Positions 1,772 through 26,500 are shown, counted from the first letter of the stretch. The stretch is 36,902 nucleotides of DNA from Fidelibacterota bacterium (GCA_004124475.1 SCKK01000019.1:20001-56902), one strand, 5' to 3'. The notes: generated by a model from the sequence alone, not told the origin. Made by a program: numbers and translations.

Positions 1772-1806
1772 AAAGGCTCATAGTCCAGAGATTGTGGGCT
1801 TTTTTC
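1772..1806 (+). terminator. Rho-independent terminator of the rRNA operon
   Basis: Directly after the 5S gene, aaggctcatagt can pair with attgtgggctt (eleven pairs including G-U, one bulged G) around a 6-nt loop, followed by a run of six T. This is a standard intrinsic terminator and marks the end of the rRNA operon. Confidence 0.75.
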
Positions 1807-2101: not shown

Positions 2102-3304
2102 ATGAAAAAAATAATTGCACAATTCATTCTTTCTACATTTCTCCTTTCAATAGTTTCCTCACAAAATGTAAAGCTTTTTCCTGAACCTGGATTTGTACCC
2201 TATGTTTCATATTATGTAAGTAGTATTGATCTTGCCACCGGAGCAACGGATGTTCTTCTTTTCAGTTTTAGATTAGCCGAAGAAAATGGAGATTATGAGT
2301 CACAGGAAGTATGGGTTAAAGTAGAATTTAAAATGGAAGTAATTTCTCCTGCTCTGGGAATTGAATCACCAACGACTGTAATTAAAGTTGTGACGGATCC
2401 ATTTCAGATGTTTGCGGATATACGGATAGATAATAGAGATTTAACGACGGAGAACCTCGCCATTTATGATCTTGATAGTCCTCCAAACGAAATTCCATTA
2501 CGTGTTCACATTTTGGATCAATTGGACATCTCAGAATATGAAAATATGTTGAGTTCTGTTTTATCCACAGGAAAACTTCCAGATGGTGAATACACGTTTT
2601 ATTTGGCGATTAGATCCGGATCTTCTTCAAGTATCGGTAGTCTATCTTTGACTGATGAGGTTACCGAGAAAATCATTGTAACATCCCCAACCTCACTGAA
2701 TCTGATCGCACCTGGGGGAGAATTGGCAGATACCAGTCAGAACACCGTTTTTTCAACTTATCCTGTTTTTCAGTGGGAAACAGAACCTTGTTCAAATTGT
2801 GAGTCATTCATCCGGGTTGCCCGGTTTGATCCTTCCTTGCATGGATCACCTGAAGACGCTGTAGAGGATGTAACGGTATACCCCATGAATCAGACGGAAG
2901 GGTGGGCTTCTGTCGGTGTGAGTACCACACTTCAGTACCCTTTCTTCGATGCAGTAGAACTTGTGCCTGGATATGTTTATGTATGGCAAATCAAAAAAAA
3001 TCTACCTACCACTGTAGGAATAGAATCATATTTAAGCCCTATTTGGTCCTTAAAAATTGGAGATTTAACGCAACCTCCTGAAATGGGAATCGAAAACTTA
3101 CATCCTCTTTTACAACAATTGATGGATGTTCTTGGTGAGGATCAATTCTTTGCTTACTTTGGTCCTGATGGTGTATTATATGGGTACTCGCCTGACGGAA
3201 CATATGAAATTAATGGTATACAAGTTTCCATCGATGCTGTCTATACGTTAATTCAACAATTCCAAAATCAATCTTCACTGATTATTAATATTTCGGTAGA
3301 GTAA
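2102..3304 (+). CDS. Exported protein of unknown function (400 aa)
   Basis: I do not recognise the family. Residues 1-20 form a clear signal peptide (Lys-Lys start, hydrophobic core, cleavage probably after SIVSS). The mature part has two beta-rich regions: about residues 25-195, and about 200-325 with a fibronectin/Ig-like look (pairs such as FQWE and YVWQIK, and a Cys-x2-Cys at CSNC). A short acidic-hydrophobic C-terminal segment (about 335-400) follows. It is the first gene of a co-directional run with a FecR-domain protein, an outer-membrane barrel protein and a CHASE2 cyclase; only 2 nt separate it from the next gene. I infer a periplasmic or cell-surface partner of that system. There is no T9SS sorting domain at its C-terminus and no lipobox. 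Function remains unknown. Confidence 0.85.
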   Translation: MKKIIAQFILSTFLLSIVSSQNVKLFPEPGFVPYVSYYVSSIDLATGATDVLLFSFRLAEENGDYESQEVWVKVEFKMEVISPALGIESPTTVIKVVTDPFQMFADIRIDNRDLTTENLAIYDLDSPPNEIPLRVHILDQLDISEYENMLSSVLSTGKLPDGEYTFYLAIRSGSSSSIGSLSLTDEVTEKIIVTSPTSLNLIAPGGELADTSQNTVFSTYPVFQWETEPCSNCESFIRVARFDPSLHGSPEDAVEDVTVYPMNQTEGWASVGVSTTLQYPFFDAVELVPGYVYVWQIKKNLPTTVGIESYLSPIWSLKIGDLTQPPEMGIENLHPLLQQLMDVLGEDQFFAYFGPDGVLYGYSPDGTYEINGIQVSIDAVYTLIQQFQNQSSLIINISVE

Positions 3305-3306
3305 GA

Positions 3307-4005
3307 GTGAAACAAAAAATGGGAAAAGTAAGAAAGTTGACTACTTTAGGATTGACCACATTTTTTTTATCGACTATTTCGTTGTATGGCGCTGAAAGAA
3401 TTGCGGTAGTAACTAAAGTAAAGGGAACCGTGGAATTACGGAAAAGTGGCAGTAATTTTAAATCAGTAACTCCAGGAATCGTGTTGTTTGATCAGGATTT
3501 TATTAAAACAGGGTCCGATGGATCCATGGTAATGGTTTATCTGGATGATAAAAGTATGTTAAAAATCAAACAAAATACAAACCTCCAGATCTCTGGTACA
3601 AGAAAAGGCAAGGGTATATCTAAAAAAATAGACATGATCGCAGGGATCCTAAAAGCAGAAATATCTAAGGAGAGACGGGGTGATTTTATGATATCCACAC
3701 CGACTACGGTTGCATCGGTGAAAGGGACTATTTTCTGGTTTATTTCTAATCCTCTATTGGGGGATCAAGTTATCGGATTGGAAGGGTTGATAGAGCTGCA
3801 AAATTTAATTTCGGGCGAAGTAATTATTGTAGGTGCAGGAATGACCGGAATATCAACGCCAACAGGTGATTTAGAATTACAAGAAACAATAGACTCGGAC
3901 ATACCTGAAGATGAGGATGAGGCCGAAGAGGAAATAAATGAACTGAAAGTCCGATTAAAAGACGCATTCGGTGAGGAAAAAGTTTTCATCATAAAATACC
4001 GGTGA
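3307..4005 (+). CDS. FecR-domain exported protein
   Basis: Signal peptide at the N-terminus (hydrophobic TTLGLTTFFLSTISL, cleavage near LYGA), then a FecR domain at about residues 30-150: VKGTVELRKSG, a conserved GIVLFDQDFIKTGSDGS segment, LDDKSMLKIKQNT and STPTTVASVKGTIF. FecR domains in this arrangement are periplasmic beta-sandwich modules found in sensor or scaffold proteins; iron-citrate signalling is only one case. The C-terminal part is very acidic (about residues 200-212, DEDEAEEE). The GTG start at 3307 is 2 nt after the preceding stop; an ATG at 3319 would give a protein four residues shorter and is equally possible. Translational coupling in the four-gene run is likely. There is no transmembrane segment apart from the signal, so this is not a classical FecR anti-sigma factor. 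Confidence 0.85.
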   Translation: MKQKMGKVRKLTTLGLTTFFLSTISLYGAERIAVVTKVKGTVELRKSGSNFKSVTPGIVLFDQDFIKTGSDGSMVMVYLDDKSMLKIKQNTNLQISGTRKGKGISKKIDMIAGILKAEISKERRGDFMISTPTTVASVKGTIFWFISNPLLGDQVIGLEGLIELQNLISGEVIIVGAGMTGISTPTGDLELQETIDSDIPEDEDEAEEEINELKVRLKDAFGEEKVFIIKYR

Positions 4006-4084
4006 TAAATCGCTGGTTTTGTAAAAGAAATAGTTTTATTTATACTTCCATCGTTTACTTATAACCACTTTTTGTACTTATAAA

Positions 4085-6820
4085 ATGGTTCATAAAAAAA
4101 CTATTTTAATCCTATTCTTGCTATTGCTAACAAGATTTCTTTTAGGAGCTTCAACACTTATCCACACACCACCAGTGAATTCTGTTGCTGGCAAGCCAAT
4201 GATTATCAAAACTGTTGTGTTTAGTGATGTTATGATTATTGATGTCAGAGTAATTCATAGAAGCCCTGGACAGACAAGCTTCCATGAAATAAATATGATA
4301 CCAGAAGGGGAAGGATGGAAAGCTTCGATTCCACCAATATTTGTTACTGAAAATGGGTTAGAATATTCAATCTTAGTCAGATTAGCGGATGGTAGCGCCC
4401 TCGGTTTCCCCCGTGAAAATCCATTAAACTCTCCATACTTTCTACCCGTGATGCCTGAAGAAACCGGTGCGAGATCGTTTATAGGAGAAGAGGAAGAGAT
4501 TTCATATTTGGAAGCAGATATTCTCATCGTCAGTCCGGAAGAAGACAGGTTAATATCATCTATAGAAGCATTAATTGTTGCTTCCCTTTATAATATTCAA
4601 GGAGTTGCTCTTAACACTGTAAAGATTATATTTGATGGAATAGATGTGACATCTCTCGCAGTAGTTACACCGGAAATACTTATTTATACTCCCGAAAATA
4701 TTGAACCTGGTTTTCATACTGTTAGAATAGAATTAAAAAATTTATACGGTATTTCGATTGAGCCCAAAACATGGTCATTTACGGTAAGTGGTGGGGAAAA
4801 ACGGATTATTACAGCATCAGAGGAGTTTTCATATAAAGGGAAAGTACGATCGGACTATTCCCTGGATAAAATAGAGAGTGGAGTATTATCAATCGGACAG
4901 ACAAGGTTTGAATTTGAAGGTGGTTGGAACTGGTTAAATTTTGTGACAGATTTAAGATTAACCAGTAATGAAAGTGAATATTTACAACCGAGAAACAGAT
5001 ATTCTTTAGGGATAAAATCCGGCGAAAATATTTTAATTAATTTGGGTGATTTTACCCCTGTTCTTTCTCCCTATACAATTAATGGTAAACGAGTACGCGG
5101 ATTTGGAGTTGATGTAAATCTGAATTGGATAAGGTTTCAACTGGTACAAGGAGAATTAGAAAGAGCTGTTCAGGGACTTCCCAGTGCTGATGACTCATAT
5201 ATAGTCACAAATATTTCCAGTGACGGGAGTGGAAAGCCAATTTACGAATTGGATAGAAGAGGTTTTACATTTTCACGACAGTACCAGGCATATCGGTTAA
5301 GTTTAAACCTGTTTAATCGAGCTCGATTGGGTTTGAATTTACAAAAAGCAAGGGATGATCCAGGAAGTGTGAGTAAAGAAATAGGAAATGCAAAGTTTAC
5401 CGTTCCTGATTGGACAGATTTCGTATCGGATCCGGGTTTAGATTCCGGAGTTTATTCACTAAATGAATTCAAGGATGCTATTTCAGATATTGCCTCTTTT
5501 AAACTGGCGAACGCGCACTGGGGAGGAGATTTACCTCAGGATAACATTGTTTTAGGGTTTGATGCAGGGCTTTCTTTTGATGAAAGAAGATTGAATTTTG
5601 ATCTTGATTGGGCAGTCAGTTTTGTCAACAAAAATATCTGGGATGGGGCTCTGACAAAAGCCGAAATGGACACAACATTAGACGACTCATTGGATGGATT
5701 CATATTTAGGACATATGATGAGTATGGTTTGGTGACAAGTCTGGGATTTTCTCTCGAACAGATTGTGGATCCTTCTACCTTTAAAGATTTTTTCATTGTT
5801 AATGCGAATATGATTCCTTTAGTTCCTGTTGATATTGAATTATATACAGAATCGCCTATATCAGCGATATTGAATATGCCGTCCGCTGCATACAAAATAA
5901 GGATGCAGGCATATTATTATGAAAATACATTTCAGATGCAATATTCACAGGTTGGTCCTGAGTTTATTTCTCTTGCCAATCCATATTTTTCAAGAAACTT
6001 AAGGGAATTTTTTATATCTGATAGGATTCGTCTATTTGACAATAAACTGTCAATCAGAATGACATACAAACATAGAGATAATAAAATTTTGAGCGCTGTT
6101 GTTGACCCATATTCACAGAATACTGTTTCTTCAAATTTTGCATTAGCGCCCGGGTTAGGACTGCCAACATTTACTTTTGATTTACAAAGTGTGCGTAGGA
6201 GTAATGGAAGTACTGAGTTGGACAGTCTTTTTTATACATCTTCAACCGGACGGGATTCTTTAGTTATTCGGGATTTTAGGGAAGACACCAAAACTACTGC
6301 TACAAATCTGATGATATCAATTCCAATTCGTTCCGGTAGAGTCAGTTATAATTTTCTTGGCACTTTTAATATCATAGATGTAGAAGATCAACTAATGGAT
6401 TTAAGAAGGAGTGATTTTATTTCCCCCAATTCCGGATCCCAGTCATTTTCACTTGCAGTTTCAACCCGGTATACCTCACCGTTAAAGACTTCCTTTAATA
6501 TTACTAGATACAATCTTGAGTTACCTGGCAGAACTGTTGGATCGAAAGAAAAGCCGAAAGAGTCCCGGATATTAAAGTTTGCGTTTAATGGATCCTATGG
6601 ATTCCGAGATAATAAACTGAGAATCCTGGGCGGATTAAGTTATATGAAGACGACGGGTATTTCTGAATTTTCGTATATTGGAGCGAATACCGGGATTGAT
6701 CTTTCAATCTGGAAGAATTTTACAGGTCGAGGTACTGTTTCCGGAAACATCAAACAAGCTAAGAATGAATTTAGATTTGGAACATTGGCTGTGAAAATAT
6801 CTATGAATTATTTATTTTAG
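4085..6820 (+). CDS. Large outer-membrane beta-barrel protein with N-terminal Ig-like domain (911 aa)
   Basis: A hydrophobic signal peptide (residues 5-21) is followed by about 120 residues of beta-sandwich, then an Ig-like domain near 150-235 (ADILIVSPEEDRLISSIEAL to TWSFTVSG). The rest, about 245-911, alternates short amphipathic strands with polar loops, and the protein ends in ISMNYLF, an aromatic-terminated strand typical of Bam-assembled outer-membrane barrels. It is not a TonB-dependent receptor: no plug domain or TonB box is visible. It sits between the FecR protein (79-nt gap) and the CHASE2 cyclase (22-nt gap), suggesting that it anchors or feeds the envelope signal. The family is unknown to me; the barrel assignment is from composition, length and C-terminus. 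Confidence 0.8.
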   Translation: MVHKKTILILFLLLLTRFLLGASTLIHTPPVNSVAGKPMIIKTVVFSDVMIIDVRVIHRSPGQTSFHEINMIPEGEGWKASIPPIFVTENGLEYSILVRLADGSALGFPRENPLNSPYFLPVMPEETGARSFIGEEEEISYLEADILIVSPEEDRLISSIEALIVASLYNIQGVALNTVKIIFDGIDVTSLAVVTPEILIYTPENIEPGFHTVRIELKNLYGISIEPKTWSFTVSGGEKRIITASEEFSYKGKVRSDYSLDKIESGVLSIGQTRFEFEGGWNWLNFVTDLRLTSNESEYLQPRNRYSLGIKSGENILINLGDFTPVLSPYTINGKRVRGFGVDVNLNWIRFQLVQGELERAVQGLPSADDSYIVTNISSDGSGKPIYELDRRGFTFSRQYQAYRLSLNLFNRARLGLNLQKARDDPGSVSKEIGNAKFTVPDWTDFVSDPGLDSGVYSLNEFKDAISDIASFKLANAHWGGDLPQDNIVLGFDAGLSFDERRLNFDLDWAVSFVNKNIWDGALTKAEMDTTLDDSLDGFIFRTYDEYGLVTSLGFSLEQIVDPSTFKDFFIVNANMIPLVPVDIELYTESPISAILNMPSAAYKIRMQAYYYENTFQMQYSQVGPEFISLANPYFSRNLREFFISDRIRLFDNKLSIRMTYKHRDNKILSAVVDPYSQNTVSSNFALAPGLGLPTFTFDLQSVRRSNGSTELDSLFYTSSTGRDSLVIRDFREDTKTTATNLMISIPIRSGRVSYNFLGTFNIIDVEDQLMDLRRSDFISPNSGSQSFSLAVSTRYTSPLKTSFNITRYNLELPGRTVGSKEKPKESRILKFAFNGSYGFRDNKLRILGGLSYMKTTGISEFSYIGANTGIDLSIWKNFTGRGTVSGNIKQAKNEFRFGTLAVKISMNYLF

Positions 6821-6842
6821 GGAGATCAAAGGAAGTTAAATT

Positions 6843-9323
6843 ATGTCTGCTATTCTAAAATTTTGTAAAAAACATGCAATTGGTTTTGGATTGACACTTG
6901 GTACAATTATTATTGTATTATTTTTTCATCGCGTTCATTTATTCGATAATTTTGAATTAAAGGTTATTGATCTGGCATTTAAAGTAAGAGGACCTTTGTC
7001 CGGATGGGCAGCAAGGAAAGAGATTCCCAAAGATAGTCTGGATATTGTGATTATTGATATTGATGATGAGAGTTATCGTCTTGTTCCCTGGACATGGCCC
7101 TATCCAAGGGAAGTATGGGCTATTACGGTTGAAAACCTGACGAGAGCCGGTGCAAAAGTAATCGTTTTTGATATTCAGCTTGATTCACCAGATCGTCGTG
7201 CGGAATACTTGAAAGGGATTTCTCGAGACCTTAAGAAACTTGGGATGGAAGATTTGATACCTGCTCATGGAGACAGTGTACTCGCTGATGCCATTAGGGA
7301 AGCACAAGCTAAAGGTACCTCGGTAATTTTGGCGACCAAACTTGTACAGGAGCCGACGAGAATCCCACCTCAATACATACAATTTCCTGTAGAGGTATTG
7401 CGATCTGCTGATCCGGATTATGGTTTGGTAAATGAGGAACCCGACACAGACGGATTTTCCAGGCAATATTTTACATTTCTAAAAATTGAGCAGGAGCGAG
7501 ATACTTGGTATTCAACTCTTGGGATAAAAGCAGTACAGAAGTACCTCAACCTGCCAGACACAACGCTACCCCATATTAATTTAGAAGATAATATTTTGAA
7601 CTATGGACCTTTGAAAATCCCACTTAGTAGTAAGAATGGAAAATTCCTTATTAATTTTTACGGACCCCCTTCAGGGATCAATATCGGCGAGTATGAAGCG
7701 TGGAAAACGTTCAATCGGTACCCGCTGTCGAATGTTGTTGATATCGCAGATGTTGATCTGAAGGACCCAGATGAGGATATTGACTGGATGAGCCAATTCC
7801 TGCCTGGTGAGATCCCAGCGTGGTTAGATGAAATCGAAGATCCCGATACAAAAGCTGAACTGATGGTGCAACTTGGTATTGGTGATCATTTTGATATTAC
7901 ACAGTCACCCTTTTACAATAAAATCGTGATGATTGGCGTTTCGGTTGAGGTTTTCCATGATACAAAAAGTACACCCTTCTATACATTTGCTGGGCAACAA
8001 CAATTAATGCCAGGGATGGAAGTACACGCAAATGCTATTCAAACCCTTTTGGATCAAAATTTTATTCATGTTTTTGGAGGTAATATCACCTGGAATAGTA
8101 AATCATGGGTATCTCATGCTCTCCTGATCAGTGGTTTATCAATTCTTACCTATCTATTCATTACATTTTTAAATCCTCTGTTTGCTGGTCTAAGTATTGT
8201 TCTGGGGTTAGCAATATTTTTTAGTGTTGCTATTGGAGCATTCACAAATGATTCTTTGTGGCTGGTAAAACAGATTTTAGGAAATTGGAGTAAAATTAAT
8301 GTTCCGGAATTCGGGCAATCTACAATTATCCTTACAATTGCGCCTATTTTCGGCGTTGTGTTCACGTATATCAGTAACATTCTTTACAAGTTTATTATGG
8401 AACAGAAGGACAAGCGATTCTTAAAAAATACGTTTGGTGCATATTTAGCTCCAGAATTAATTGACCAAATGTATGAAGAAAAAAGAGAACCCAAACTCGG
8501 TGGAGATATTGGATACCACACAGCTTTCTTTTCGGATATTCAAAGTTTTTCAGCATTTTCTGAGGTTCTTGATCCGGAGAAAATCGTATCCCTTATGAAT
8601 GAATATTTAACCGCCATGACTGATATATTACTTCATCGTCGTGGTACTCTGGATAAATATATTGGAGATGCCATAGTAGCTTTTTGGGGGGCTCCTGTTC
8701 CGGTGGATGATCAGGAATACCAGGCTTGTATGACTGCTTTGGAGATGGAGAAACAGTTGGTAGTTTTCCGGGAAAAATGGAGTACTGACGGAGACTGGCC
8801 TGAAATTGTTCAAAATATCCGACATAGAGTCGGTTTAAATTCCGGTGAATTGGTAACAGGGAACATGGGTTCAAAGATGCGTATGAACTATACCATGATG
8901 GGGGATATGGTTAATATTGCTGCCCGGCTGGAGTCCTCGGCAAAACAGTACGGCATTTATATTCAGGTTGGGGAAAATGCCTATAATGCCGTGAAAGATC
9001 AATTCGAATGGAGAATATTAGATCATGTTCGTGTGAAAGGGAAAAAAATGCCGGTAAAAGTATTTGAACTCCTGTCCGAAAAAGGAAAATTAGATGATAT
9101 TCATTCCAAGGTACTTCCAATTTTCCATGAGGGTTTGGAATATTATAATTCGCAAAAGTGGGATAAAGCAAATAAAGCATTCGCAGAATCAGATCAGCTG
9201 GAAGATATGTTCCCGACCCGACCTACGAATCCAAGCCGAGTGTATATTGAAAGGTGTCAATTTTTCAAAGAGAATCCACCTGGGGACGATTGGGATGGCG
9301 TCTGGACGTTAACGGCGAAATAG
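6843..9323 (+). CDS. CHASE2-domain class III adenylate/guanylate cyclase
   Basis: Architecture: one transmembrane helix (about 13-30), an extracytoplasmic CHASE2 sensor domain (about 38-415, with DSLDIVIIDIDDESYRLVPW and PGMEVHANAIQTLL), three transmembrane helices (about 420-520), then a class III nucleotide cyclase domain (about 550-740). Catalytic features are intact: first metal Asp in FFSDIQSF (Asp565), second in KYIGDAIVAFW (Asp609), substrate-contacting Lys605, and YTMMGDMVNIAARLE with the Thr expected for ATP-preferring bacterial cyclases. A tail of about 70 residues with a TPR-like helix pair follows. It therefore probably makes cAMP in response to an envelope signal. A good Shine-Dalgarno (aaaggaag) precedes the ATG. 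It is the last gene of the run with the FecR and barrel proteins. Substrate preference is inferred from motifs only. Confidence 0.93.
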   Translation: MSAILKFCKKHAIGFGLTLGTIIIVLFFHRVHLFDNFELKVIDLAFKVRGPLSGWAARKEIPKDSLDIVIIDIDDESYRLVPWTWPYPREVWAITVENLTRAGAKVIVFDIQLDSPDRRAEYLKGISRDLKKLGMEDLIPAHGDSVLADAIREAQAKGTSVILATKLVQEPTRIPPQYIQFPVEVLRSADPDYGLVNEEPDTDGFSRQYFTFLKIEQERDTWYSTLGIKAVQKYLNLPDTTLPHINLEDNILNYGPLKIPLSSKNGKFLINFYGPPSGINIGEYEAWKTFNRYPLSNVVDIADVDLKDPDEDIDWMSQFLPGEIPAWLDEIEDPDTKAELMVQLGIGDHFDITQSPFYNKIVMIGVSVEVFHDTKSTPFYTFAGQQQLMPGMEVHANAIQTLLDQNFIHVFGGNITWNSKSWVSHALLISGLSILTYLFITFLNPLFAGLSIVLGLAIFFSVAIGAFTNDSLWLVKQILGNWSKINVPEFGQSTIILTIAPIFGVVFTYISNILYKFIMEQKDKRFLKNTFGAYLAPELIDQMYEEKREPKLGGDIGYHTAFFSDIQSFSAFSEVLDPEKIVSLMNEYLTAMTDILLHRRGTLDKYIGDAIVAFWGAPVPVDDQEYQACMTALEMEKQLVVFREKWSTDGDWPEIVQNIRHRVGLNSGELVTGNMGSKMRMNYTMMGDMVNIAARLESSAKQYGIYIQVGENAYNAVKDQFEWRILDHVRVKGKKMPVKVFELLSEKGKLDDIHSKVLPIFHEGLEYYNSQKWDKANKAFAESDQLEDMFPTRPTNPSRVYIERCQFFKENPPGDDWDGVWTLTAK

Positions 9324-9467: not shown

Positions 9468-10343
9468 ATGAGATCCGTTAGATTTAAGTTTACAAAGCAG
9501 TTCATATTTAATATTCTATTCAGCTTGTTATTTTGGGCATGTGGTCTGGAACAACCCCTTCCTGAAAATCCCTATGATCCCTTAAATCCGGATTATTCTG
9601 TCCCAAGAACGCAGATTATCTCAAGTCCTTCCAATATAGTTCCAGAAAAATCAGTCACATTTGCCTGGCAGCAAAAAGATTCCTTTTACAATAGTGATAG
9701 TCTTGATTCGGAAACATATGGAAAAATATGGTATCGGTATCGACTTAATGCAGATTTGTGGTCTATATGGTCCACGAATACTTCTATTACCTTTGACTTT
9801 TTGGATGACCGGGACTACCTGTTTGAAGTGATGTCTAAATATCCTACGAACATAATGGAAGATGTACCCTATCCAAAAAAGAGTTTTACTATGGACGCTT
9901 ACCGGTCTTCATTAGTCTTTTCACCCCGAATGACTATATTGAGATCTGACCTTGGTGAAAATACTTTTGCTGTGTCTGTCAAAGCTGAAGATGTGTCTGA
10001 TATGATGGGTGTTCATATTGTTGTGGATTACGATCCTGATTTTCTGAAGCTTAATGCAATATCCCTGTTTACTAATGAGAGTGATTTTCTGTTACATAAT
10101 GGTGGTGATATTATCCATTTTTTAGATCCTGACTCACTTTTCGGGGAATTGACTGCTGATCTGGTTGTGGTTATGGGCAGCGGTGGTGTAGATGGAAGTG
10201 GTGATTTAATGGAACTTCAGTTTGAACAAATTGCCGAGAGTGACACGATGTACATAAGCTTTGGTGCGGAATCATCCATCAGGAATTCCGTGAATGAAGA
10301 AATGCTTGAAGATCGAGGCGATGGGGTGGTGTATGTGTGGTGA
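9468..10343 (+). CDS. Lipoprotein with cohesin-like domain
   Basis: The N-terminus has positive residues, a hydrophobic stretch and a lipobox-like LLFWAC, then GLEQPLPENPYDPLNPDY, a leader often seen after the lipidated Cys in FCB surface lipoproteins. Residues about 45-140 form a beta-rich region with many Trp/Tyr (FN3-like). Residues about 160-285 resemble a cohesin domain: FAVSVKAEDVSDMMGVHIVV, DYDPDFLKLNAI, and a final strand GDGVVYVW. Cohesins bind dockerins in cellulosomes, but similar domains are common in unrelated surface proteins. It is separated from the cyclase gene by 144 nt and followed by a repeat-bearing spacer, so it may be a single transcription unit. Lipobox residue -3 is Phe, which is unusual, so lipidation is likely but not certain. 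Confidence 0.75.
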   Translation: MRSVRFKFTKQFIFNILFSLLFWACGLEQPLPENPYDPLNPDYSVPRTQIISSPSNIVPEKSVTFAWQQKDSFYNSDSLDSETYGKIWYRYRLNADLWSIWSTNTSITFDFLDDRDYLFEVMSKYPTNIMEDVPYPKKSFTMDAYRSSLVFSPRMTILRSDLGENTFAVSVKAEDVSDMMGVHIVVDYDPDFLKLNAISLFTNESDFLLHNGGDIIHFLDPDSLFGELTADLVVVMGSGGVDGSGDLMELQFEQIAESDTMYISFGAESSIRNSVNEEMLEDRGDGVVYVW

Positions 10344-11104: not shown

Positions 11105-12664
11105 ATGAGTAAACGAGGTAAAATTCTTTGGATTGATGACGAGATCGATCTCCTAAAACCTCATCTTTTATATTTGGAAGAGAGGGGATATGAGGTAGTA
11201 AAAGTGACCAATGGGAGGGATGCAATTGTTGCGGTGGGAGAAACCCAATATCACCTCGTCCTTTTAGATCAGGTAATGCCTGGGATGGACGGCATTTCAA
11301 CACTTAGAAAAATAAAAGATATTCGTCCGGCACTTCCTGTGATTATGATAACAAAAAATGAAGAAGAGTGGCTAATGGACGAAGCTATTTCCGAAAAAAT
11401 TTCATATTACCTTACCAAACCTGTTAATCCAAGCCAGATATTCCTCGCCTGTAAGAAAGTTCTTGAGGAAGAGAAACTTATAGAAGAAAAAACTGCCTCA
11501 GCTTATTTAAAAGATTTTCAAACAATCGAGTCCTCTCTTTCTTCTGAGATGGATATCGACGCCTGGTGGCGGCTTCATGTTAAGTTGACGGATTGGCAAC
11601 TTGAGATGGATAACCAACCAGACCTTGGTCTGGGGTCAATTCTCGAAGGACAAATTAAAACGTGTAATGGACAATTTGTCCAATTTTTATTGGATCATTA
11701 TGTTGACTGGCTTCATAGTTCAAAATATGATCGTCCAACCCTGTCGGTAGATGTTTTAAAAACACACGTAATTCCTCATTTAGCATCGGGTGAAAAGGTA
11801 TTTTTTCTGTTAGTAGATTGTTTTCGGCTAGACCAGGTGATGGCAATTCTACCTTTGATACGGAGGTATTTCGAAGTATCGATTGATTACCATGTCTCAC
11901 TGCTACCTTCCGCTACTCCATTTTGTAGAAATGCTATATTCAGTGGAGAATACCTCTCTGAGATTCAAAATAAATACCCTGAGTTGTGGAACAACATGAA
12001 TCGTGGTGACAGAAGTATGAATAGTCTTGAAAAAGAGTTACTCGGGAAATTTTTGAGGAAAAATGGTTTTAAAAATCTTCCGTTTATCTATCAGAAAGTT
12101 AATGTAGCCAGAGAAGGTATAAATTATTTAAACCAGTTTAATGATTTTATGGATGTACCTTTTGTTTCTCTGGTGGTCAATTTCATTGATATATTAACAC
12201 ACCGTCGATCCGAATCAGAAATATTGAGAGAGATGATGCCAAATGAGTCCGGATATCGTTCAACCGTACGAGCATGGTTTCAAAATTCATGGTTATACGA
12301 CATTATTAAAAAAGTAAGCGATGCTTCTTATAAATTGATTTTGACCAGTGACCATGGGAGTACTCAGGTTCATAGAGGTGTGCAGGTGCCGGGCGATCGT
12401 GAAACATCTTCAGGTGTACGTTATAAATATGGGAAAAATTTAAGGTGTCCGGAAAAATTCGGTTTGGAGATAAAAAGACCTCAGGATTACTTTTTGCCTG
12501 AGATGGTTACGGGAACAAACTATATCATTGCAAAAGAAGATACTTATTTTGTATTCCCGACCCAATATCATAAGTTCCGTTCTCTTTTCCAGGGCAGCTT
12601 TCAACATGGCGGCATCACCATGGAGGAAATACTTGTTCCCACTTTCACATTTACTCCGAAATAG
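11105..12664 (+). CDS. porX: PorX-type response regulator with PglZ phosphatase-fold domain
   Basis: Residues 1-125 are a CheY-like receiver with acidic pocket Asp11-Asp12, phosphoacceptor Asp55 (LLDQVMPGMDG) and the conserved Lys in YLTKPVN. A helical linker (about 125-215) leads to a PglZ/alkaline-phosphatase-superfamily domain (about 220-519) with metal and catalytic residues visible: Asp238 (LLVDCFRLD), Thr271 in PSATPFCRNA, Asp416-His417 in TSDHGSTQVH. The start (GKILWIDDEIDLLKPHLLYL) and 519-residue length match PorX, the regulator of type IX secretion in Bacteroidota, which in Porphyromonas works with sensor PorY and sigma factor SigP. PorY is not in this window. Close PorX relatives occur widely in FCB bacteria, where the role may be broader than secretion. 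The receiver and catalytic residues are intact. The next gene starts 1 nt after its stop. Confidence 0.9.
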   Translation: MSKRGKILWIDDEIDLLKPHLLYLEERGYEVVKVTNGRDAIVAVGETQYHLVLLDQVMPGMDGISTLRKIKDIRPALPVIMITKNEEEWLMDEAISEKISYYLTKPVNPSQIFLACKKVLEEEKLIEEKTASAYLKDFQTIESSLSSEMDIDAWWRLHVKLTDWQLEMDNQPDLGLGSILEGQIKTCNGQFVQFLLDHYVDWLHSSKYDRPTLSVDVLKTHVIPHLASGEKVFFLLVDCFRLDQVMAILPLIRRYFEVSIDYHVSLLPSATPFCRNAIFSGEYLSEIQNKYPELWNNMNRGDRSMNSLEKELLGKFLRKNGFKNLPFIYQKVNVAREGINYLNQFNDFMDVPFVSLVVNFIDILTHRRSESEILREMMPNESGYRSTVRAWFQNSWLYDIIKKVSDASYKLILTSDHGSTQVHRGVQVPGDRETSSGVRYKYGKNLRCPEKFGLEIKRPQDYFLPEMVTGTNYIIAKEDTYFVFPTQYHKFRSLFQGSFQHGGITMEEILVPTFTFTPK

Positions 12665-24347: not shown

Positions 24348-25354
24348 ATACGAAAGTAGTAAAGAGAGATTTTAAGGAAACCATAAGAAAAATACGGCAA
24401 ACGAACATTGAGCCTGTGTATTTCTTGAATGGTGATGACTATTATCTACAGATGTTTTTTATCCATGCGGTCGAAAAATATTTTTCTAAAAAACAGAAAG
24501 TGGAAAGGATTTTTCTTGTTCCTGAAATAACTGATTTCCCTCAAATCCTTGCTGAGTTGAATTCTGTGGGATTATTTCCTGAACCGAAACTATTCATTTT
24601 ACAAAACCCAACTCGGATTAAGGGACAATTGAGAAAAGAATTATTACAATACTGTAAATCACCTATTGAAAATAACTGTTTGATAATTGTTATAGATAAA
24701 TATGACCCAAAAATGAAGTTAATCTCGGACATAAGTGCTATTTTGGGCGTAATAAATACATCACCGCCTTATCCTAATAAGATAATTCAGTGGGTAAATT
24801 TTCTGTTGGACCACAATAACCTTAACGCAACATCTTCAGCAATAGAAAAACTGGCTGAATTGTGTGGAGATTCGGTCTACCATATTTCAAATGAAATAGA
24901 AAAAATGAAAATCGGTTTAGGGGATAAGGATTCTGTAAGCGAATCGGATGTACTAAGATTTGTCGGGTGGAAACGAAAATATTATCCCTGGCATTTTTTA
25001 GATGCTATTGGAAATAAAAATTATATTCATGCGGTTAATATTGGAAGAAATCTTCTTAGTGAAGGAACCGATATATCCATGCTAATCTCGAAAATGACTC
25101 TCTTATTTCAAGAAATTTTATTTCACCATTTGAAGAATGGAGAGGGGGGTAGGAAAGCAGGTCAAATTGGTTGGTTAGGAGGTAACATCACTCGAAATCT
25201 ATCAAAATATAAGAAACATTATACCAAAGAAGAATTGGGAGGAATTTTTCACTATTTGGCATTAGTCGATCAAAAAACGAAAACAAGTAGGTTAGATTCC
25301 CTAATGCTGCTCCAACCGCTTCTATATAAAATTTTGATGAATAATGATAGATAA
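24344..25354 (+). CDS. holA: DNA polymerase III delta subunit
   Basis: Clamp-loader subunit that opens the beta clamp. Length 336 aa and sequence pattern fit HolA: an N-terminal IEPVYFLNGDDYYLQMFFIH stretch, a middle AAA+-like part with NNCLIIVIDKYDP and CGDSVYHISNEIEKM, and a C-terminal all-helical collar region (FLDAIGNKNYIHAVNIGRNL, LVDQKTKTSRLDSLM). The family lacks a Walker A motif, as here. It overlaps the symporter stop by 4 nt and the sigma factor start by 11 nt. Confidence 0.9.
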   Translation: MNTKVVKRDFKETIRKIRQTNIEPVYFLNGDDYYLQMFFIHAVEKYFSKKQKVERIFLVPEITDFPQILAELNSVGLFPEPKLFILQNPTRIKGQLRKELLQYCKSPIENNCLIIVIDKYDPKMKLISDISAILGVINTSPPYPNKIIQWVNFLLDHNNLNATSSAIEKLAELCGDSVYHISNEIEKMKIGLGDKDSVSESDVLRFVGWKRKYYPWHFLDAIGNKNYIHAVNIGRNLLSEGTDISMLISKMTLLFQEILFHHLKNGEGGRKAGQIGWLGGNITRNLSKYKKHYTKEELGGIFHYLALVDQKTKTSRLDSLMLLQPLLYKILMNNDR

Positions 25355-25934
25355 ACATAAATATAGTGATGAAGAATTAATCTACCGGTTCCAGCAAGGA
25401 GATGAAGTCGCTTACATTGAACTTGTAAATCGGTATCGAAACAGATTGATAAATTTTGTTTATCGGTATATTGGTGATAGAAATGACGCCGAGGATATTG
25501 TACAAGATACTTTAGTAAAACTGTATACACACAAACATTTCTATAGAAATATAGCAAAGTTTTCAACCTGGATTTACACAATTGCTTCAAATCTTGCGAA
25601 GACCGAATTAAGGAAACGGAAACGGCGAAAAGTGACTGTATTAAGCAAAATGGGTGGCGAAGATAGGGAGTTTGATCCTGCGTCTGAAATTACTGCCGAT
25701 GAATTCGCGGAAGGAAGGCATACGGAAAGGGAAATCCAAAACGCCATTCAGAGTTTACCCCTTCATTTCAGGACTGCGGTTATCTTGAGAGATATTCAGG
25801 AACTTTCTTACGAAGAAATCAGTAATATACTCGATGTTCCCCTTGGAACAGTAAAATCGAGAATCAATAGAGCAAGGTTGCAGTTACAGGAAGAGCTAAA
25901 ACATGTTAAACAAAAAGGGAGGAAACGAATTTGA
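25344..25934 (+). CDS. ECF-type RNA polymerase sigma factor
   Basis: Region 2 (about residues 20-90) has YRNRLINFVYRYIGDRNDAE, DIVQDTLVKLY and FSTWIYTIASNLAKTELRKR. Region 4 (about 130-185) has LPLHFRTAVILRDIQELSYE and VPLGTVKSRINRAR, the helix-turn-helix recognising the -35 element. Length 196 aa is typical for ECF sigma factors of the RpoE-like group. Its start lies inside the end of holA and its stop overlaps the anti-sigma gene by one base, so the pair is translationally coupled. The target genes cannot be read from this window. Confidence 0.95.
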   Translation: MIDKHKYSDEELIYRFQQGDEVAYIELVNRYRNRLINFVYRYIGDRNDAEDIVQDTLVKLYTHKHFYRNIAKFSTWIYTIASNLAKTELRKRKRRKVTVLSKMGGEDREFDPASEITADEFAEGRHTEREIQNAIQSLPLHFRTAVILRDIQELSYEEISNILDVPLGTVKSRINRARLQLQEELKHVKQKGRKRI

Positions 25935-26500
25935 TGAATTGTTACGAGGTTCGAGATATCATATCTTCTTATATAGAAAATGAGTTATCCATTCAAAGTA
26001 TCAATCAATTTGATGAACACGTTAATAACTGTAAAAATTGTGATGGGACTTATTTAGGGGTATTATCCCTAATTACTACTTTACGTTCATCCCCACGAAT
26101 AACAGTTTCTAATAGGTTTAATTCAAAGCTTCAGGAAAGGATAAATAATGTATCCATCAAGACTATCAATCCGATAAGCCATTTATTCAGGGATAAATTG
26201 GTTTTTGGGTTTGAACCTAAGTATGCATTTGTTTCCATTATAGCAGTAGTAGCGATCATATTTCTGATGGTTGGTCTGTTACCCACCAATGAGAACCCAT
26301 CCTTAGAAACTTCGATTCCAACAGAAATTACCCCGGTATTTACAGGTTCGTCTTCTCCGAATGATAACCCTGGAATGTATAACCCTGACGTCAATTTGGT
26401 GTCGGAAACTGATGGAGATTCCGTAAAAACCACTGAAAATAAAAAGGGGACAGTCTCTGATTTCGAAGGTCGAATTAAATTAGTAAAAGACCGAAGATAA
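25934..26500 (+). CDS. Membrane anti-sigma factor with zinc-finger (ZAS) domain
   Basis: The N-terminal cytoplasmic part has a zf-HC2/ZAS motif: an N-terminal Cys followed by FDEHVNNCKNC (His-x3-Cys-x2-Cys). One transmembrane helix is centred on YAFVSIIAVVAIIFLMVGLL (about residues 100-120), and a C-terminal periplasmic tail of about 65 polar residues is rich in Ser, Thr, Asn and Asp. It should bind and silence the upstream ECF sigma factor until an envelope signal triggers its release. I chose the second of two adjacent start codons (ATG 25934, not TTG 25931) because it follows agggaggaa at good spacing and gives a TGATG overlap with the sigma stop. Confidence 0.9.
   Translation: MNCYEVRDIISSYIENELSIQSINQFDEHVNNCKNCDGTYLGVLSLITTLRSSPRITVSNRFNSKLQERINNVSIKTINPISHLFRDKLVFGFEPKYAFVSIIAVVAIIFLMVGLLPTNENPSLETSIPTEITPVFTGSSSPNDNPGMYNPDVNLVSETDGDSVKTTENKKGTVSDFEGRIKLVKDRR

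Follow-up and report, generated by a model that had tools for sequence, protein, structure and literature searches.

Four conserved genes encoding an exported protein, a FecR protein, an outer-membrane barrel and a CHASE2 cyclase in Ca. Neomarinimicrobiota: a putative trans-envelope receptor operon

The sensory domain CHASE2 is widely distributed, yet few of its signals have been identified. In Sinorhizobium meliloti, an outer-membrane barrel, NsrA, is required together with the CHASE2 cyclases CyaK, CyaD1 and CyaD2 for cAMP signalling (PMC7529298, PMC13001267). A gene cluster of the Campylobacterota encodes a CHASE2 adenylate cyclase, a FecR-domain outer-membrane protein, a TPR protein and a cAMP phosphodiesterase (PMC9239204), and a LysM-FecR protein shares an operon with a CHASE2 histidine kinase in Burkholderia (PMC5192318). 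Both the action of an outer-membrane barrel with CHASE2 cyclases and the clustering of CHASE2 with FecR genes are already published in these reports. The initial annotation of the locus described here had presented it as a candidate undescribed pathway, which holds only in part. A search of the open-licence literature returned no report of the four-gene combination from Marinimicrobiota.

The window (i.e. the whole stretch of 36,902 nucleotides analysed) lies on contig C22 of a 3.15-Mb genome from the uncultured marine phylum Ca. Neomarinimicrobiota, also termed Marinimicrobiota. Four consecutive genes on the + strand encode an exported protein termed EXP (2102..3304; 400 aa), which is conserved beside FecR across the phylum, a FecR-domain protein with a GTG start (3307..4005; 232 aa), a barrel protein termed BAR (4085..6820; 911 aa, last residue Phe) and a CHASE2 cyclase (6843..9323; 826 aa). 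The open reading frames, shared direction and gaps of 2, 79 and 22 nt were exactly as initially annotated, and median gaps across quartet loci were -1, 37 and 9 nt. An rRNA operon ends in the first part of the window (23S to 1578; 5S 1648-1764). Read-through from this operon into the module was rejected because a terminator-like hairpin (1772..1803, +) lies 3' of the 5S rRNA gene, between the operon and the module. Downstream of the cyclase are COH, PorX, TsaE, TsaB, AccD, SurE and GuaA, in that order. COH (9468..10343, +) is lipoprotein-like with a weak cohesin-domain match and is optional, being found 3' of the cyclase in about one third of loci. PorX (11105..12664, +) is a type IX secretion system (T9SS) response regulator with a PglZ phosphodiesterase domain (NCBIfam equivalog, 612.9 bits, cut-off 300). 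An ECF sigma factor and an adjacent zf-HC2 anti-sigma candidate are encoded at 25344-26500.

Conservation of the quartet was examined in 34 loci around cyclase orthologues from the same taxonomic order as the window genome. The EXP-FecR-BAR-CHASE2 arrangement was complete in 27, cut at contig ends in five and rearranged in two (L068 and L070), where the cyclase stands alone and the EXP-FecR-BAR triad is on another contig, with a contig end cutting one of these triads. Among loci of other families and classes, 18/19 were complete and the remaining one was cut at a contig end; these locus counts are not independent trials because the sequences share ancestry. The FecR gene of L106 was counted as present though masked by an overlap filter in the neighbourhood listing. 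The co-occurrence check proposed in the initial annotation, run here within the phylum, thus came out in favour of more than a chance neighbourhood, the same gene order recurring across the phylum. BAR profile matches were obtained in 172/245 genomes and 73/84 genera. Identities of BAR, EXP and FecR to the window proteins drop to ~21-46%, indicating that the quartet is not a case of recent hitch-hiking. Presence of a triad-type cyclase and of BAR was scored by hand from search results for 61 relatives: 42 had both, 16 had neither and three were discordant (two of them of low completeness). As judged from these sequence comparisons, EXP, FecR, BAR and the CHASE2 cyclase are supported as one conserved unit.

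EXP is predicted to have, besides its signal peptide, two beta domains of Ig/FnIII-like type and, at the C-terminus, a small alpha/beta part. Its structure model was weak (mean pLDDT 57.3), a fold search with it returned nothing at E<=0.001, the weaker matches being generic FnIII folds, and the sequence matches among solved structures were rejected as making no biological sense. A Pfam search gave no family match for EXP or BAR. The FecR protein matched the Pfam families FecR (4.3e-9) and DUF7354 (1.9e-10) and comprises a signal peptide, the FecR domain, an acidic linker and a conserved C-terminal strand pair; it is predicted to be periplasmic. The acidic tail reported initially is present as an acidic stretch (SDIPEDEDEAEEE) but forms a linker and not the end of the protein. 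In 16 sequences, the linker varied from ~15 to 300 residues and was followed by a conserved C-terminal tail, xLxIxLxxxxGxxKxxIIxY (3937..4002, +). The N-terminal half of the FecR protein (gene at 3307-4005) resembles the retention module of LapA and antifreeze proteins, with a match to NF033682 (LapA retention module) over the first half of 1.6e-5, which is below the model's cut-off, and a match of the N-terminal half to 5ix9 at E=0.011.

BAR carries a signal peptide, amphipathic strands and an aromatic C-terminal beta-signal, and is very probably an outer-membrane barrel. The N-terminal part (residues 22-237; 4148..4795, +) contains two Ig-like domains, is the best-modelled part of the chain and is presumably periplasmic. 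The barrel part (residues 249-911; 4829..6817, +) has ~26 strands according to the model, Foldseek and hydrophobicity alternation (z=2.9). All of the best 50 Foldseek matches were outer-membrane barrels or pores, obtained with a model of low confidence (mean pLDDT 57.7, six sequences). The C-terminal beta-signal for outer-membrane insertion (...Y-x-F; 6788..6817, +) was recognized from orthologue C-termini, which have Phe as the last residue in 31/31 cases and Tyr at -3 in 30/31. No convincing sequence relatives of BAR were identified among solved structures. Outside the phylum, BAR was absent from three of four genomes having CHASE2 relatives; the fourth (Fibrobacteria) contained one short match of ~67 residues.

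The fourth gene had been called a CHASE2 class III cyclase, and both domains scored above Pfam cut-offs (CHASE2, 2.2e-42, 145.8 bits vs 26.3; Guanylate_cyc, 1.2e-22, 80.9 bits vs 21.9). Hydropathy peaks at residues 10-34, 422-470 and 490-515 are consistent with an architecture of one transmembrane segment (TM1), ectodomain, TM block, catalytic domain and C-tail. All six class IIIb residues are present in the window cyclase, namely the two metal Asp (D565, D609), the Lys/Thr substrate pair (K605, T684) and the transition-state Asn and Arg (N691, R695), and no substitution was found at these positions in 33 sequences, with one undetermined X in two columns. The Lys/Thr pair is the ATP-type pair of class III cyclases. 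CyaB (3r5g) was the nearest solved chain. The protein is therefore a predicted adenylyl cyclase with a catalytic domain that is intact by sequence.

Triad-linked CHASE2 cyclases contain an enlarged ectodomain segment (residues 270-359; 7650..7919, +), within which lies an ED-I-DWM motif (residues 311-316; 7773..7790, +). The segment flanked by the conserved sequences INFYGPP and NKIVMIG spans 73-99 residues in the triad-linked cyclases compared, and 36-39 residues in this genome's FecR-only paralogue and in 3/4 outside relatives. A paralogue on contig C1 and the cyclase of a deltaproteobacterial locus (L043) also have long segments, but these are unrelated to the triad-type insert. The insert motif, ED-x-[DN]-[WY]-M (or L), was found in 46/49 barrel-adjacent cyclases vs 0/25 unlinked CHASE2 cyclases, counts that are not independent and a correlation that is not proof of contact, because the triad-linked cyclases form one orthologous lineage. 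One of the three exceptions (L051) reads DETDWM. The motif was also present without an adjacent barrel in the cyclases of L068 and L070, i.e. the two rearranged loci whose genomes hold EXP-FecR-BAR on another contig. Of the evidence tying the cyclase to the triad, this association, although a correlation only, is the strongest. The C1 paralogue (L080, 5608-9430) is the third CHASE2 cyclase of the genome; its ectodomain insert is very long and different, and a transposase-like gene lies directly upstream.

Parts of the quartet also occur separately. The initial annotation missed both the EXP-FecR-barrel loci without a cyclase and the FecR-CHASE2 pairs without barrel or EXP in the same genomes, as well as the ectodomain insert. 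A second EXP-FecR-BAR triad without a CHASE2 cyclase (L091; contig C14, 4021-9572) is present in this genome, and six other genomes contain such loci, some of them incomplete. The FecR protein of L091 has 522 aa, with repeats separating the FecR domain from the conserved tail. In the BAR and FecR trees, a single branch (support 68 and 94) separates off the triad-only copies, and their placement in the EXP tree needs two changes, indicating that the three genes were duplicated more or less together. The existence of cyclase-less triads indicates that EXP-FecR-BAR serves some function even where no CHASE2 gene lies next to it. Neighbours of triad-only loci vary, and no constant alternative output was found beside them. 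Two of these loci (L122, 3198-7180; L120, 3184-7835) lie beside c-di-GMP/phosphorelay genes (REC, GAF-HD; Hpt, GGDEF), which are possibly other outputs. Conversely, a FecR gene without the triad directly precedes 13/21 other CHASE2 cyclases in the phylum. In the window genome this common two-gene form is represented by L079 (contig C45, 7225-10487), where a FecR protein of 278 aa is encoded directly before the cyclase, with no barrel and no EXP. On this basis FecR-CHASE2 is the core, with EXP and BAR as an outer-membrane extension.

On balance, we favour by a little the interpretation that the quartet is a trans-envelope receptor operon converting outer-membrane state into cAMP, with contacts, direction, ligand and product that we infer. 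At the outer-membrane end, the receptor would be made up of EXP and of BAR, including the Ig-like periplasmic portion of BAR. FecR would act as a tether across the periplasm, the FecR domain holding one side and the conserved tail, on its flexible linker, the other. The receiver would be the periplasmic CHASE2 ectodomain, in which docking probably takes place at the triad-specific insert (ED-x-DWM). A signal arising at the outer membrane, or its mechanical state, could then pass through the TM helices to a dimeric class IIIb catalytic domain and change cAMP levels, and cAMP may act via CRP-family proteins; five matches to cNMP-binding proteins were found in the genome. The parts of this interpretation supported by sequence are the gene unit, the barrel type, the catalytic residues and the insert-triad correlation. 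Weighing against it are the cyclase-less triads, the low confidence of the BAR and EXP models and the single lineage behind the insert correlation. More tentatively, the system could be a phylum-specific two-membrane receptor, in which BAR and EXP control a CHASE2 adenylyl cyclase via a FecR tether and a purpose-built insert and the triad is re-used elsewhere without an adjacent cyclase; this fuller version is quite possible, though we lean somewhat against it.

The lone FecR genes before the 13/21 other cyclases would fit a scheme in which FecR-CHASE2 alone is the core. EXP and BAR would then be a machine for export or display instead of a ligand receptor, and FecR-CHASE2 would provide feedback by monitoring the substrate or state of this machine. 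The long repeat-bearing FecR of cyclase-less triads such as L091 would suit a displayed or exported protein, and no TonB plug or STN match was found with Pfam in BAR (the window protein and 18 members). However, triad-only loci have differing neighbours and share no conserved passenger gene, and FecR is small and possesses the conserved tail in most cyclase-linked loci; we regard such feedback as unlikely. The proximity of PorX, encoded next in most loci, raises a further scheme, control of the T9SS, with BAR, EXP and FecR monitoring the T9SS and the cyclase working with PorX, the PglZ domain of which may have the cyclase's nucleotide as a substrate. SprA is present in the genome, the P. gingivalis PorX is stated to hydrolyse oligoadenylates, both cyclic and linear (PMC11320123), and BAR and PorX are both present in 157 and both absent from 43 of 245 genomes, an agreement inflated by phylogeny and incomplete genomes. 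Nevertheless, cAMP is not among the PorX substrates reported in the literature found, the quartet of one genome (G185, L095) is far from PorX (L119), and streamlined genomes retain SprA but no PorX or BAR. SprA was detected in 226/245 genomes and BAR in 172, with SprA lacking BAR in 63. In L112-L119, PorX-TsaE-TsaB (and AccD in most) are in place without the quartet in front, leaving this block intact in several lineages and setting the quartet apart from PorX as a unit of its own. T9SS control is improbable, and membership of the quartet in the T9SS itself was rejected, since it does not track SprA across genomes and the genes around PorX persist where it is missing.

That the surrounding TsaE, TsaB, AccD block is functionally mixed yet conserved could also mean that the four are unrelated co-transcribed envelope genes kept upstream of PorX by long-lived synteny. 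Against this, in lineages that have the mixed block but not the quartet all four genes are absent together, duplication of the triad involves all three of its genes, both halves are kept where the cyclase stands apart from the triad, and the cyclase insert follows the triad; mere synteny is very improbable. For the trans-envelope receptor, natural variation provides a testable handle, as CHASE2 cyclases occur with FecR only or with FecR and barrel, and the insert is found only in the latter.

Comparison with known systems separates the quartet from FecA-FecR-FecI iron-citrate signalling, which shares the FecR domain name and, in principle, an outer-membrane-to-periplasm relay. Membership was rejected given the lack of an STN domain, a plug, a FecR TM/anti-sigma region or an adjacent sigma factor: the window FecR had no STN match in Pfam and no TM segments over threshold beyond the signal-peptide region, and the one ECF factor detected in the window lies at 25344, not adjacent to the quartet, with a zf-HC2 partner of its own. 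The Burkholderia operon (PMC5192318) also pairs FecR with a CHASE2 receptor, but has a histidine kinase output and no barrel. The Campylobacterota cluster, the window quartet and L079 all have a FecR gene clustered with a CHASE2 class III cyclase; unlike that cluster, the window has no TPR protein or ordinary cAMP phosphodiesterase, and its BAR and EXP belong to no Pfam family. In the deltaproteobacterial L043, genes for an HD/GAF protein, a CHASE2 cyclase, a TPR-barrel protein and a FecR protein lie side by side, but the barrel-like protein ends in YRY and is unrelated to BAR (no profile match), and the cyclase lacks the ED-x-DWM motif of triad-linked cyclases. The S. meliloti NsrA-CyaK/CyaD1/CyaD2-Clr pathway resembles the quartet in that an outer-membrane beta-barrel acts ahead of CHASE2 adenylate cyclases and a CRP-family regulator senses the cAMP, as proposed here. 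As described, NsrA differs from BAR in that its barrel of 600 residues follows an N-terminal part of ~600 residues, and its signal perception is described without a FecR or EXP gene (PMC7529298, PMC13001267). If the insert is a docking site, the quartet would show how an outer-membrane protein drives an inner-membrane cyclase, the question left by the NsrA work.
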